Below are positions 9,913 to 20,346 of a DNA stretch of 20,346 bases, one piece after another. The notes beneath the pieces are model-generated. The model had not been told where the DNA came from and searched no databases. It was given only the letters and a program-made list of their open reading frames with translations. Origin of the DNA: a virus; IMG/VR virus record IMGVR_UViG_3300030101_000481, positions 1 through 20,346 of that record. One strand, written 5' to 3'. Position numbers and translations under genes: made by a program. Numbering within the stretch: position 1 is the stretch's first letter; every line of letters begins with the position of its first letter.

Positions 9913-10896
9913 ATGAAGAAAAAGAAAAAACTTATAGAATTAATCATAGATGAAACTGCAGACCACTTTGGTGTAGATGCCATTTCCGTTGTCAAATTCC
10001 CTGCTATAGAGGAAAACTTTGTTTTCTTTAATAATGACTTTTTAAGTCTAGCAAAAGCAGATGAAGAAAAGAAACAATTAATTGGTGCTATTCTGATTCC
10101 TGAGAAACGTATTCCAAGACTCGATAAGGAAACTAACGAGGAGTACGACGTTTACTTTACTAAAGAAACTATAAAACAAGCTCAGAAGCTATTTATGGCT
10201 AGTTTAAACAACAATAATCACACTTATGAACATAAAGAGCCAATACAAGGTTTAACGGTCGTAGAATCGTGGATTAAGGAAGATAAGAAATTTGACAAAT
10301 CCAATATGTATGGTTTTAAAAACTTACCTGTTGGAACGTGGTTTGTTCAGGTATCAGCAGAAAATAATCCTGAGATTTGGGATGCTATCAAGAATAAAGA
10401 GGTTAGAGGTTTTTCTATTGAAGGCTACTTCACAGACAAGCTAATAGAAGCATCTAAGGAAGTAGATATATTAGACGAAGTATGTGAGGATTGTCCTGAT
10501 GAGGTAACAATGAGCAGAATTAAAGACGTTATTCTACAAAATGAACTACAGCCTGTAGGTGCTTTAGATGGTGAGCCTTTATTTAGAACTAAAGAGGAAG
10601 CTGAACTATATGCTGAAATGTTTAAAGGTTGTTCAGGTAGTCACCCTCATACAGTAGACGGTGTTAAATTATTTATGCCATGTGCTGACCATTCATCGGC
10701 TACAATGCGAGAGGAACACGCTGAAACAGGACGTAAGAAACGCAAGAAAAAATACAAGATGTTAGAATATATTGCTTACGCTAAACGTAAAGCTATGTTA
10801 AAGTATTCTTGGGACGAATGTATGAGAGATCAAATGAAACAATATGGCAATAAAGAAACTGCTGCAAAAGTATGTGCTACAATTAAATTCAAGTAA
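9913..10896 (+). CDS. XkdF-like prohead serine protease with extra C-terminal modules
   Basis: 327 aa. Residues 1-175 match the XkdF/Peptidase_S78-type prohead protease pattern: GVDAISVVKFPAIEENF (20-36), LIGAILIPEKRIPRLD (56-71), HTYEH (103-107, candidate catalytic His) and VRGFSIEGYF (164-173, candidate nucleophile Ser168). It would cleave scaffold and capsid precursors during head maturation, and it lies just upstream of both. The remainder is unusual. A Cys/His cluster C240-x3-H244-x-H246 ... C257-x2-H260 looks like a metal site. A very basic segment (274-282) leads to a terminal module SWDECMRDQMKQYGNKET (299-316) followed by AAKVCATI. Both tail modules recur, as I remember, on other phage head proteins with no known function. 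The start follows the repeated upstream element. Confidence 0.8.
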   Translation: MKKKKKLIELIIDETADHFGVDAISVVKFPAIEENFVFFNNDFLSLAKADEEKKQLIGAILIPEKRIPRLDKETNEEYDVYFTKETIKQAQKLFMASLNNNNHTYEHKEPIQGLTVVESWIKEDKKFDKSNMYGFKNLPVGTWFVQVSAENNPEIWDAIKNKEVRGFSIEGYFTDKLIEASKEVDILDEVCEDCPDEVTMSRIKDVILQNELQPVGALDGEPLFRTKEEAELYAEMFKGCSGSHPHTVDGVKLFMPCADHSSATMREEHAETGRKKRKKKYKMLEYIAYAKRKAMLKYSWDECMRDQMKQYGNKETAAKVCATIKFK

Positions 10897-17275: not shown

Positions 17276-17806
17276 ATGGCAGGACAAAGACTAACAGACA
17301 AGACAGCACTAGAACAACAAGTAGGTAGTGGCGATCTACTCATGGTAGTGGACGTAAATGACACTACAGGATCAGCTGAAGGCACATCCAAAAAAATGGA
17401 TTTCAAATACCTTATGCAAACTGATAAAATAAGCGTGTCTAATGCGGAAGTGCAGGATTTGCATAATAACGCAAAAACTTTAGTTGGTGCATTAAGTGGT
17501 TATATGATTACCCCCATAAGTGTTACTTTTTTATGTACATACGCTGCATCTACTGAAAGCTCTAATAAAAATCTATACATAGGTTATAATCATTCTTCTG
17601 ATACTGAATATTGGGACATTAGCTCTAGATTTATGGGCAATGTTACAACTGATGCTAGTTTTGTTTTTGGAGGACGTTCGGGGGGAGCAGGAACAAAAGA
17701 CACTTCTATTATAAATTCACCTTTAGAAATATGGTCAAATGGAGCATTTAATGGTGGGTGGTCTGCTGATGTTTATGTTACTTACGCTTATACTAAAGTA
17801 TTATGA
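17276..17806 (+). CDS. Fibre-like or tail-associated structural protein
   Basis: 176 aa. The first 50 residues, with 'L-T-D-K-T-A-L-E-x-Q-V-G-S-G-D-L-L-M-V-V-D-V-N-D-T' then GTSKKMDFKYLM, form an N-terminal module I associate with virion-attached fibre or appendage proteins of Flavobacteria phages. The remainder (about 75-176) is Ser/Thr/Gly/Asn-rich and beta-strand-like, ending 'W-S-A-D-V-Y-V-T-Y-A-Y-T-K-V-L'. This suits an anchor plus a small receptor-binding or decoration domain. A 68-base gap precedes it with no obvious terminator. Its stop overlaps the next ATG (ATGA), so it is coupled to the exported membrane-protein gene. The receptor-binding role is inferred. Confidence 0.48.
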   Translation: MAGQRLTDKTALEQQVGSGDLLMVVDVNDTTGSAEGTSKKMDFKYLMQTDKISVSNAEVQDLHNNAKTLVGALSGYMITPISVTFLCTYAASTESSNKNLYIGYNHSSDTEYWDISSRFMGNVTTDASFVFGGRSGGAGTKDTSIINSPLEIWSNGAFNGGWSADVYVTYAYTKVL

Positions 17807-18813
17807 TAAAATATATATTATTATTATTACCCTTTTTAGGATTTAGTCAAAGTAACTTTTTTAAGTATGCTACATTCTATACTTCTATGAGTATAAATAC
17901 AAGCATGGTTGAGGATCAAAATTATATAGCTGTATCTAAAGGCTATGAAGATGTTACACAAGTTAATCCATATGATTATAACCTTACAATAGGTTTAAGA
18001 AAAATAGCAAGATTTGATTATGAATATAAAGTTAAAACATGGTACTATGGTACTGAGAAAGCTGTTAGTGACAATGTTACTATTGGTAATAGCATTGGTT
18101 GGGAGTATTTATTTAATTATTCATTTATACGTAATCGTGGTGACAAGTTTACTAACCAGGATTTTTGGCTTAGATACCTTGGAAACAAATGTGTAACTAA
18201 AATACAACTTAAAAATGATGAAAGACGTAATATGGAGTTTATATCGTTTGATACAAGGTATAGACTACAAAAGGGCAACTTTGATTTTACAATGGGCGTT
18301 TTGGGGCGTCAGCATCCTGTTTATCATATCCTTCCTATTCAGGATTTTTGGGTAAGTGGAGAAAGCACATTTAATGATTTAGCAGAAGATTTTGGATATT
18401 CAACGCAATACGTTCAAGGTGATTGGCATTGGTTTAATAATGGTGAATTAATAGCAACGTCAAATGATGAGTTTTACAAGCATTATTTTGGTCAAGCTAT
18501 AGCAAACTATAACAATGAGCAATTAAACGCTTTAGGAAACGTCTATGAGCTTTCTATGGCTATAGGAATAGCATATTACAAACACCATAATAACGCATGG
18601 CTACATACGTGGCTAAATTTAATGCCTTTACACTATGGTTTAAGTGACTATAGTTTTGAGTATGAAGGGGCAGGATTAGACCTAGATGCAGGTATTGTAG
18701 CAGGTCTTAGAGTTACTAAGCATTTAGGATTGTTTGTAGAAGGAACATATTTAAATTATTGGGAAAAGCCAATATATGAGTGCAAGTTTGGATTTAACTA
18801 TTTAATATTTTAA
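17803..18813 (+). CDS. Sec-exported outer-membrane beta-barrel-like protein
   Basis: 336 aa. An N-terminal signal peptide, MIKYILLLLPFLGFSQ (1-16), ends with the flavobacterial FSQ. The mature part is rich in aromatic residues with many alternating-pattern strands, for example 'D-Y-N-L-T-I-G-L-R-K-I', 'F-D-F-T-M-G-V-L-G-R' and 'K-H-L-G-L-F-V-E-G-T-Y-L-N-Y-W'. It ends in phenylalanine after FGFNYLIF, as outer-membrane barrels recognised by BamA do. No lipobox Cys is seen. Phages rarely encode barrels, and an outer-membrane protein expressed late could mask or replace a receptor (superinfection exclusion) or help lysis or release. It is coupled by ATGA overlap to the fibre-like gene and is 2 bases from the next exported protein gene. 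The fold is inferred from pattern only. Confidence 0.62.
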   Translation: MIKYILLLLPFLGFSQSNFFKYATFYTSMSINTSMVEDQNYIAVSKGYEDVTQVNPYDYNLTIGLRKIARFDYEYKVKTWYYGTEKAVSDNVTIGNSIGWEYLFNYSFIRNRGDKFTNQDFWLRYLGNKCVTKIQLKNDERRNMEFISFDTRYRLQKGNFDFTMGVLGRQHPVYHILPIQDFWVSGESTFNDLAEDFGYSTQYVQGDWHWFNNGELIATSNDEFYKHYFGQAIANYNNEQLNALGNVYELSMAIGIAYYKHHNNAWLHTWLNLMPLHYGLSDYSFEYEGAGLDLDAGIVAGLRVTKHLGLFVEGTYLNYWEKPIYECKFGFNYLIF

Positions 18814-18815
18814 CA

Positions 18816-19430
18816 ATGAACAGATTAATTACATTACTATTTATAACATCATTTTCTTTTGGACAAGGTTATGACTTTCAACAACTATGTTTAGATTGCG
18901 CTGAACAAAATGGTTTTTTCTGTGGTGATGATCCTGCTAACTGGACTCAGTATGCTCCTAATGGTTGTGTGCCTAATGGTGAGGGCGGATTAGAGTATTT
19001 AAATGACGGGTGGGATGACTGTGCTGATGGCTCAGACGAAAATGGTGCTGTTCCTACATCACCTGAAGATTGTGGTCCTCCGCCTCAAGAATGTGATACT
19101 ATATATGAAATAGAATACATCTACGAAACAGTTATAGAATATGTTGATGTAATTATCTATGACACCATAATAGAGACAGAATACATATATAATACAGATA
19201 CAGTATATGCAGACGTTTTAGACACTATGTTTATAGATGTTATAGAGTATGTTGAAATATTTACACAAGAATATATTGATTGTGAAACAGGATTGCCGTG
19301 TAGTACAGGCATACAAGAAGCTATAGACAAATCAAAGAATACAGGCTTAATGTACAACCTTAATGGTCAGCACATTAGAAAGCCTGAAAGTATATATATA
19401 GAAAATGGTCAAATTAAAAAAGTATTATAA
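18816..19430 (+). CDS. Exported protein with LDL-receptor class A-like domain
   Basis: 204 aa. Signal peptide MNRLITLLFITSFSFGQ (1-17). Residues 25-86 hold an LDLa-like module: C28, F34-x-C36, C51 and GWDDCADGSDENG (65-77), the classic calcium-binding D-C-x-D-x-S-D-E. The usual fourth Cys before D-G is replaced by Asn63, and C25 and C86 lie outside standard spacing. Residues 94-153 form a low-complexity Tyr/Ile/Asp/Thr/Glu stalk (IYETVIEYVDVIIYDTIIE). The C-terminus, 'M-Y-N-L-N-G-Q ... I-Y-I-E-N-G-Q-I-K-K-V-L', resembles the final hairpin of Bacteroidetes T9SS sorting domains. It is probably a secreted or surface-tethered adhesin-like protein, coupled with the barrel-like gene. LDLa domains are rare in phages. 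Function is unknown. Confidence 0.6.
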   Translation: MNRLITLLFITSFSFGQGYDFQQLCLDCAEQNGFFCGDDPANWTQYAPNGCVPNGEGGLEYLNDGWDDCADGSDENGAVPTSPEDCGPPPQECDTIYEIEYIYETVIEYVDVIIYDTIIETEYIYNTDTVYADVLDTMFIDVIEYVEIFTQEYIDCETGLPCSTGIQEAIDKSKNTGLMYNLNGQHIRKPESIYIENGQIKKVL

Positions 19431-19663
19431 TGAATATATTTAAAGACGATAACAATTGGAATGAAAAGGCAATAATAGGTTTTGTTGCTTTTATAATAAT
19501 GTGTATAATAATGATAGCTGATTTACTTACAGGGTGGTTTGGAAAAGACCTTGTTATAAATGAATTTGTTTATGATTCATTTGTGTGGGTTGTGTTAGGT
19601 TGTTTTGGTATTAGTGGAGTAGAAAAGTTTTCAGGTAAAAAATGTGATAATTCTTGTAAATAA
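19430..19663 (+). CDS. Small two-helix membrane protein, holin candidate
   Basis: 77 aa. Two predicted membrane helices: about 13-31 (KAIIGFVAFIIMCIIMIAD) and about 47-64 (VYDSFVWVVLGCFGISGV), joined by a short loop with LLTGWFGKDL, and a charged Cys-containing tail (KKCDNSCK). Size and topology fit a class II holin, which would open the inner membrane at lysis. It overlaps both neighbours as TAATG, so it is part of one coupled run. No dual-start motif is evident. The alternative is an unrelated small membrane protein; the holin call rests on topology and position. Confidence 0.52.
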   Translation: MNIFKDDNNWNEKAIIGFVAFIIMCIIMIADLLTGWFGKDLVINEFVYDSFVWVVLGCFGISGVEKFSGKKCDNSCK

Positions 19664-19944
19664 TGAAAGAACTTTCAGAAGATTCTAAGTTTGAAATAAG
19701 CCTAAAAACATTAGGTGGAATAGGTGTTTTAATAGCAACGCTAGTAGGTATGTGGTTTAGCCTTAATGCTTCTATAGATGAAGCTAAGCTATTGCCATTA
19801 CCGCCTGAGCCTGAAGTTACTAAAATGGAGTTTAGAATGAAGGACGAAAATATAAGAGCCTCAATTTATTCAACTCAGGAAGATGTTAAAGAAATAAAAG
19901 AGGACATCAAATACCTTAGAGATAAAATAGACAAAATGCAATGA
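19663..19944 (+). CDS. Membrane-anchored coiled-coil protein, spanin/holin-accessory candidate
   Basis: 93 aa. A short charged N-terminus is followed by one membrane helix at about 16-36 (TLGGIGVLIATLVGMWFSLN), a Pro-rich stretch (LLPLPPEPEV), and a charged coiled coil from about 60 to the end (EDVKEIKEDIKYLRDKIDKM). N-terminal anchor plus periplasmic coiled coil is the architecture of an i-spanin (Rz-like) or of a lysis accessory protein. No Rz1-like lipoprotein is nested or adjacent. It is coupled to the holin candidate by TAATG and to the next gene by ATGA. Function is inferred from shape and place. Confidence 0.48.
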   Translation: MKELSEDSKFEISLKTLGGIGVLIATLVGMWFSLNASIDEAKLLPLPPEPEVTKMEFRMKDENIRASIYSTQEDVKEIKEDIKYLRDKIDKMQ

Positions 19945-20330
19945 ATATAACTAACCTTATATATGTCTTACTCACTATCTTATTTTTTATAATAGGTATA
20001 GCTAGTGGTCAGGACTTTATTACTGAGTCTAACTTTGAAGATAGGATTGCAAAAGACATTGTTGCAGTAGAGTTTTGGGTTGAATGGAATAAGTCAAATG
20101 AATTTGCAGAGATTACTAAATTGAATGACTGTGAAAAATATAGAGTTGATATAGGACGTTTTCCAAGCATACAAAAGAAGTATAATGTAACCTGTATACC
20201 TACAGTAATTATATTTGAAAGCGGTGAAGAAAAGGATAGGTTTAAGGCAAACATTATGTTTCAACTAAACGCAACAAAAAAGGACGTGCAAAAAAGCATA
20301 GACAATTTGATGTTAGCAAAATTTGAATAA
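19941..20330 (+). CDS. Exported thioredoxin-fold protein lacking the CxxC site
   Basis: 129 aa. A hydrophobic signal segment ends in IASGQ (20-24), so the domain is probably periplasmic or extracellular. The rest follows a thioredoxin fold: strand VAVEFWVEW (41-49), 'Y-R-V-D-I' (67-71), 'Y-N-V' then cis-Pro motif IPT (86-88), strand VIIFESGEE (89-97) and a final helix. In thioredoxin the W-C-G-P-C motif follows the first strand; here the same place reads W49-N50-K51-S52-N53, so both cysteines are Asn. Two other Cys occur, C64 and C85, the latter directly before I-P-T. It therefore cannot be a standard disulfide oxidoreductase. A binding or chaperone role, or a rewired Cys pair, is possible. 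It overlaps neighbours on both sides (ATGA, TAATG). Confidence 0.62.
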   Translation: MNITNLIYVLLTILFFIIGIASGQDFITESNFEDRIAKDIVAVEFWVEWNKSNEFAEITKLNDCEKYRVDIGRFPSIQKKYNVTCIPTVIIFESGEEKDRFKANIMFQLNATKKDVQKSIDNLMLAKFE

Positions 20331-20346
20331 TGAGAATAAGCAAAAA
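20330..20346 (+). CDS. Start of next gene (cut by right edge)
   Basis: ATG at 20330 overlaps the previous stop as TAATG, the same coupling used by several genes before it. Only MRISK and one partial codon are visible. Some phage M15-type endolysins begin M-x-[IL]-S-K-N-F, and an endolysin would fit behind holin-like genes, but five residues cannot establish that. Confidence 0.45.

Follow-up and report, generated by a model that had tools for sequence, protein, structure and literature searches.

Phage-encoded cargo of the type IX secretion system (T9SS) has previously been noticed only in passing, in Cryophage (Bellas et al. 2020, PMC7468147) and in crAss-like cluster 2 (PMC6949934), and in view of these reports it is not a new category. 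There, as may also be the case at the present locus, phage genes carry T9SS sorting signals and the host system is presumably used; however, the proteins described, which are enzymes or PA14 or BACON proteins, bear sorting domains of the canonical kind, whereas the protein considered here has a compact tail reminiscent of motifs D and E, an LDLa-like head and linkage to a cassette built around an outer-membrane barrel. It is this compact-tail, barrel-coupled, LDLa-like form of presumed phage T9SS cargo that is new. As to the signal itself, the last 22 CTD residues of P. gingivalis HBP35, with motifs D and E among them, have been found necessary (PMC3120885), and a review describes them as enough to bring about secretion of GFP (PMC10202324), while for RgpB the Ig-like CTD fold has been reported as essential (PMC11285876). 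A further parallel is T9SS type B cargo with PorP/SprF, in which a surface cargo gene likewise adjoins an outer-membrane barrel gene (review PMC10202324). The phage pair differs from it in that searches with Pfam and NCBIfam gave no match to the type B CTD (TIGR04131/PF13585) in the cargo or to PorP_SprF in the barrel, which is predicted to be 12-stranded with Tsx as its best fold match.

The window, that is, the whole stretch of DNA analysed, is an IMG/VR viral record of 20,346 bp. Genes for a terminase (PF04466), a capsid-protease-like protein (PF14550), a portal (PF04860), a tape-measure-like protein and a DUF6712 protein identify it as a tailed phage, whose own host is presumably flavobacterial. 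The protease-like gene at 9913-10896 is XkdF-like, and residues 224-261 of its product match DUF3721 (PF12518, E 1e-6). Neither the LDLa-like gene nor its barrel was found among 50,697 cultured phage records, and the distant barrels and the large cargo described below gave no match there either. The features discussed are the following.

17803..18813, + strand: outer-membrane beta-barrel with signal peptide, predicted to be 12-stranded, obligate neighbour of the LDLa-like gene (AF2, fold match, adjacency)
18816..19430, + strand: LDLa-like stalked surface protein, 204 aa, ATG start (ORF; at least 244 IMG/VR relatives; alignment; dN/dS)
18816..18863, + strand: putative Sec signal peptide, residues 1-16, cleavage before or near Q17 (pattern in 88/89 members; Q17 invariant)
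18888..19073, + strand: Cys-rich head, C25-C86, LDLa-like in its second half, Cys4 replaced by N63 (89/89 members; PF00057 and PDB profile matches)
19005..19040, + strand: calcium-cage-like motif D64-G-W-D-D68-C69-A-D71-G-S-D74-E75 (conservation in 29 members)
19092..19277, + strand: stalk, C93-I154, strict two-residue alternation, no K/R, variable length (family sequences)
19278..19301, + strand: clasp D155-C156-x-T-G-x-P-C162 between stalk and tail (invariant alignment columns; same in host proteins L040, L041 and L044)
19347..19427, + strand: compact T9SS-CTD-like tail, YNLxGQ (motif D-like) and IYIENGxIK (motif E-like) (alignment; host tails; hhalign)
19430..19663, + strand: TM77, small membrane protein of holin-like size, frequent cassette member (56/91 loci)
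19663..19944, + strand: TM93, N-terminal TM followed by a presumed periplasmic coiled coil, core member (87/91 loci; topology from sequence)
19941..20330, + strand: exported thioredoxin-fold (Trx-like) protein without an active-site CxxC, core member (PF00085, E 5e-7)
20330..20346, + strand: start of an M15 endolysin gene cut by the window end (MRISK.. start as in the L003 ORF at 7449, PF08291, E 3.5e-18)

The original prediction described ORF 18816-19430 as an exported, LDLa-like, stalked surface protein of Bacteroidetes style in a phage late region, and every element that it listed is found there. Relatives were recovered from IMG/VR at 36 loci by a single-sequence scan and at no fewer than 244 by a profile scan; 91 loci were fetched, yielding 89 full-length members, of which 88 begin with a signal-peptide-like N-terminus (by a simple sequence pattern), all carry the head module and 87 have exactly nine cysteines. 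In an alignment of 29 members Q17, C25, C28, C36, C51, C69, C86, C93, C156 and C162 are invariant, and NWTxYxPxGCV and a DxWxDCxDxxDE core are also seen. A dN/dS of 0.05-0.18 between the window protein and nine close relatives indicates strong purifying selection, which together with the family size rules out a chance motif. The diversifying selection expected for an arms-race surface protein is absent, and conservation of this strength weakens a simple, fast-evolving decoy role. Nor is a virion structural protein favoured, given the signal peptide pattern and the lack of a match to tail-fibre families in Pfam and PHROG.

Searched alone, the window protein matched nothing in Pfam, PHROG or NCBIfam at lenient cut-offs, and its sole phmmer match in the PDB was an LDLa-like chain (E 0.56). 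The cysteines of the head follow the order C25..C28..C36..C51..C69..C86, and the putative calcium-ligand residues of the DGxxDCxDxSDE motif are present, D64, D68, D74 and E75 being invariant among the 29 aligned members, as is C69, and D71 nearly so. PF00057 was matched by 23 of these 29 relatives (best E 4e-4), and the family profile retrieved mostly LDLa-type chains from the PDB, led by those of VLDLR and LRP1 (E 0.03-0.4, best 0.032). The window protein itself, however, did not match PF00057 at E<=1 or at E<=10, the Pfam gathering score was not reached, and the canonical Cys4 of the CDG motif is N63 in the phage alignment (G in one member), so that the C1-C6 order of six cysteines is not found. 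Compared with LDL receptor class A modules, then, the head has the x-DGxxDCxDxSDE calcium motif and the flanking cysteine pattern, but also an N at Cys4, an extra N-terminal CxxC half and a sub-gathering score; the LDLa comparison that had been proposed stands for the motif residues and the general pattern, and not for Cys4 or for the Pfam threshold. An AF2 model of the whole protein from 29 sequences was too poor to be of use (mean pLDDT 53.8), with no structural match among those listed. The conserved residues suggest that the head may bind calcium and form disulfides.

A Crocinitomicaceae protein of 1138 aa (L039), which has a TIGR04183 domain at its C-terminus (35.5 bits, cut-off 23), contains the same head twice, and a Neomarinimicrobiota protein (L042) contains it with Cys4 kept and canonical LDLa repeats adjoining; the copies in both reach the PF00057 gathering score. 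Because the module is thus present in surface proteins of marine Bacteroidota and Neomarinimicrobiota, a bacterial source is simpler than an animal one, and the animal-like origin suggested at first can be dispensed with. By sequence, the phage head is a bacterial LDLa-like module and, by the two criteria tested, not a member of PF00057.

Between head and tail lies the stalk of Tyr, Ile, Asp and Thr that had been noted in the window, and its regular alternation extends across the family. It runs from C-D-T to E-Y-x-D-C over about 30 to 170 residues among members, is composed of Y/I/V/D/E/T, and has a period of two, with V/I/E/D on one face and T/Y/I on the other. The spacing between successive DT pairs is even in 417 of 431 cases, as against about half in shuffles, and 7378 stalk residues include not a single K or R, which argues that the stalk is not random low complexity. 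The alternation would be consistent with a continuous, extended beta-type rod.

Stalks with the same even DT spacing, together with the tail, also end four otherwise different proteins from small-genome Flavobacteriales (L040, L044, L041 and G064), the heads of which are GCMD (GCxD) repeats in L040, LRR in L041, another head in G064 and, in the truncated ORF of L044, apparently GCMD-like repeats. In 7 of 12 genomes of one Flavobacteriales family, cellular proteins carry either the head or the stalk and tail. The phage protein accordingly shares its head with L039 and L042 and its stalk and tail with L041 (SAG AG-343-M05), but whereas head and stalk-tail lie on separate proteins in the hosts seen, they are fused in the phage. 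These shared modules support the Bacteroidetes-style surface architecture originally proposed for this late-region gene.

The tail of the window protein reads YNLNGQHIRKPESIYIENGQIKKVL, the family consensus being YNLxGQxIRxPxGIYIENGKIKYK, and when loci were fetched by the tail the head was present in 80 of 80. Like the T9SS type A CTD (TIGR04183, PF18962), it is C-terminal on a protein with a putative signal peptide, it has elements that resemble motifs D and E, and the three tail-bearing host genomes tested encode a T9SS; in contrast to that domain, it comprises about 27 residues instead of about 72, so few residues separate its two motif-like elements, and the greater part of the Ig-like CTD fold is missing. 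Neither TIGR04183 nor PF18962 matched the tail of the window protein, and a TIGR04183 search of ten phage records produced only a spurious 12.9-bit match with three internal stops. When compared with 30 host CTDs by hhalign, the tail scored 19.1 against 9.5 +/- 2.0 (maximum 15.8) for 100 column shuffles; the alignment pairs YNLxGQ with CTD motif D, while the likeness to motif E is by eye only. Of 296 Flavobacteriales sampled, 4 encode a strong tail protein, and each of these has just one. The eight genomes searched for SprA, which include G011-G016 and of which three bear the tail, all encode it, and the five searched for TIGR04183 domains contain 25-59 each. A FAS1-like host protein (L147) has a weaker version of the tail that looks part-way towards a full CTD.

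The lack of a match to CTD models, the shortness of the tail relative to an Ig-like CTD and its rarity in hosts could also mean that it is not a T9SS signal, and that the protein is periplasmic, situated on the inner face of the barrel, with the host tails resembling it through a shared barrel- or peptidoglycan-binding element. We regard this as improbable, however, as the host tail proteins have heads of surface-protein type, T9SS is present in the three of their genomes tested, and a protein in the equivalent position of a sister branch of the cassette carries a full T9SS CTD. The sorting-like character assigned to the tail at the outset thus survives in part: the tail is common to host surface proteins, and its slot holds type A cargo in that sister branch, although TIGR04183 misses it. 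It may well work as a T9SS signal, and in that reading display of the LDLa-like protein on the cell surface would follow.

The barrel gene lies upstream of the LDLa-like gene in all 88 usable loci of the 91 fetched, the other three being cut by the contig or locus end, and reciprocally the LDLa-like gene is present in 76 of 76 usable loci fetched by the barrel; homologues are therefore, as anticipated, always found beside the barrel-like gene. The AF2 model of the barrel (pLDDT 75.6, pTM 0.67) is closest to Tsx (Z 15.4, 183 aligned, rmsd 3.4) and then to KdgM/NanC (Z 13.5-13.8). As these are small-solute channels, the barrel might act as a porin that imports, during infection, nucleosides or oligosaccharides caught by the surface head. 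Such a role in nutrient uptake appears very improbable, as fold matches of this kind are common to many barrels, sequence identity is 6-9 percent, and neither evidence of a binding pocket nor a link to uptake genes was found. No profile matched the barrel as PorV, PorQ or PorP/SprF, and these were absent among the fold matches listed. Six host genomes with a head or tail protein contain no barrel homologue, so that the compact tail does not as a rule come with this barrel. In some barrels (L090 4937, L094 4908) a lipoprotein-like signal (LLISCATPKKCC) replaces the plain signal peptide.

A Trx-like gene is present in 84 of the 91 loci of the LDLa-like branch, and an active-site CxxC in none of the 226 members checked over three branches of the barrel (0/84, 0/66 and 0/76), the window protein having WNKSN at that position. 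The portal of the window is recognised in only 16 of 91 loci, so that the cassette spans different phage backbones. A staphylococcal-nuclease-like gene (PF00565) is often located within or beside the cassette (L028 6737-7111 and 20 other loci).

Two sister branches came to light when the barrel profile was run against 395 Flavobacteriales genomes, which gave two matches. The first lies on a 43-kb phage contig (L318, G134:C32) that also encodes a tail sheath, a tail tube, a DNA polymerase and a UvsX-like protein; the barrel there is identical to that of an IMG/VR record (L324), and the gene order is TM77, a 994-aa protein, barrel, TM93, Trx, endolysin. The 994-aa protein (L318 8202-11186) matches TIGR04183 at 53.6 bits (cut-off 23), and is thus a true cargo in the sister slot. 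The barrel of this branch has at least 541 matching stretches in IMG/VR, and among the 80 loci examined a CTD protein is present in 71 and immediately upstream of the barrel in 56, mostly within 20 bp; in all 56 the CTD ends 0-2 residues from the end of the protein. These CTDs were detected with a profile built from host CTDs, one having been checked against TIGR04183. Large GCTD-repeat T9SS cargo proteins stand directly upstream of the barrel in L318 and L324-L403, on phage contigs of up to 245 kb, and one 245-kb contig (IMGVR_UViG_3300030098_004828) has two barrel cassettes about 120 kb apart (L400 and L402). The third branch, drawn from the second match, consists of barrel, TM93 and Trx with cargo detected in 0 of 80 loci, which implies that the cassette functions without cargo; an M15-like gene is nearby in 69 of the 80. 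TM93 is present in 67 of 80 and 77 of 80 loci of the sister branches.

A cassette that persists without detected cargo and with an M15-like gene close by could be mainly a lysis device: barrel, TM93 and the Trx-like protein would form a complex across the envelope which, once the endolysin has acted, disrupts the outer membrane in place of spanins, with the LDLa-like protein in an accessory role, linking this complex to the cell surface. Genes for an endolysin (M15, amidase or DUF5675) and a holin usually adjoin the cassette, TM93 is built like an i-spanin, with one TM and a coiled coil in its sequence-derived topology, and phages without spanins are known (91/677; PMC6139136). However, no lipobox partner was seen in the window cassette, the Rz-like PHROG match of TM93 is weak (E 0.37), some loci have no recognised endolysin nearby, and surface cargo in two of the three barrel branches would be left unexplained, so that lysis as the main function seems rather unlikely.

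Taken together, the export-type N-terminus, the modules common to host surface proteins, the obligate pairing with the barrel and the true cargo in the sister slot allow a model which we consider reasonably probable, namely that the LDLa-like protein is a phage-encoded cargo of the host T9SS displayed on the infected cell, with the barrel as its partner. This model proposes that Sec exports the protein to the periplasm, from where the compact tail, as the counterpart of sorting-domain motifs D and E, would direct it through the T9SS of the infected flavobacterial host and out onto the cell surface. In that position the continuous, beta-alternating stalk would hold the calcium-binding, disulfide-rich head off the membrane, while the outer-membrane barrel may serve as anchor, shuttle or surface docking site. 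Cargo and barrel would be part of a late cassette that adjoins the lysis genes and also encodes a coiled-coil membrane protein and a redox-dead protein of thioredoxin fold. The purpose may be to change what the infected surface binds, most likely, at a guess, to keep out other phages or to stop progeny from re-adsorbing. More tentatively, as a possibility we hold with somewhat less than even confidence, barrel, coiled-coil protein and redox-dead thioredoxin could constitute a conserved envelope module, found widely among marine Bacteroidota phages, on which different T9SS cargoes can dock in exchange for one another, the LDLa-like short-tail protein in one branch and sorting-domain proteins of about 1000 residues in another, so that the phage recodes the host surface late in infection.

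Phage T9SS cargo appears here to be recurrent and locked to a defined cassette, in its LDLa-like form at 244 loci or more and, in the 80 loci of the sister branch, as the usual neighbour of the barrel. If the tail works, it would be a very small T9SS signal and directly useful for asking what the T9SS reads. The cassette itself provides a concrete candidate for how Bacteroidota phages handle the outer membrane, whether by surface change or by lysis.
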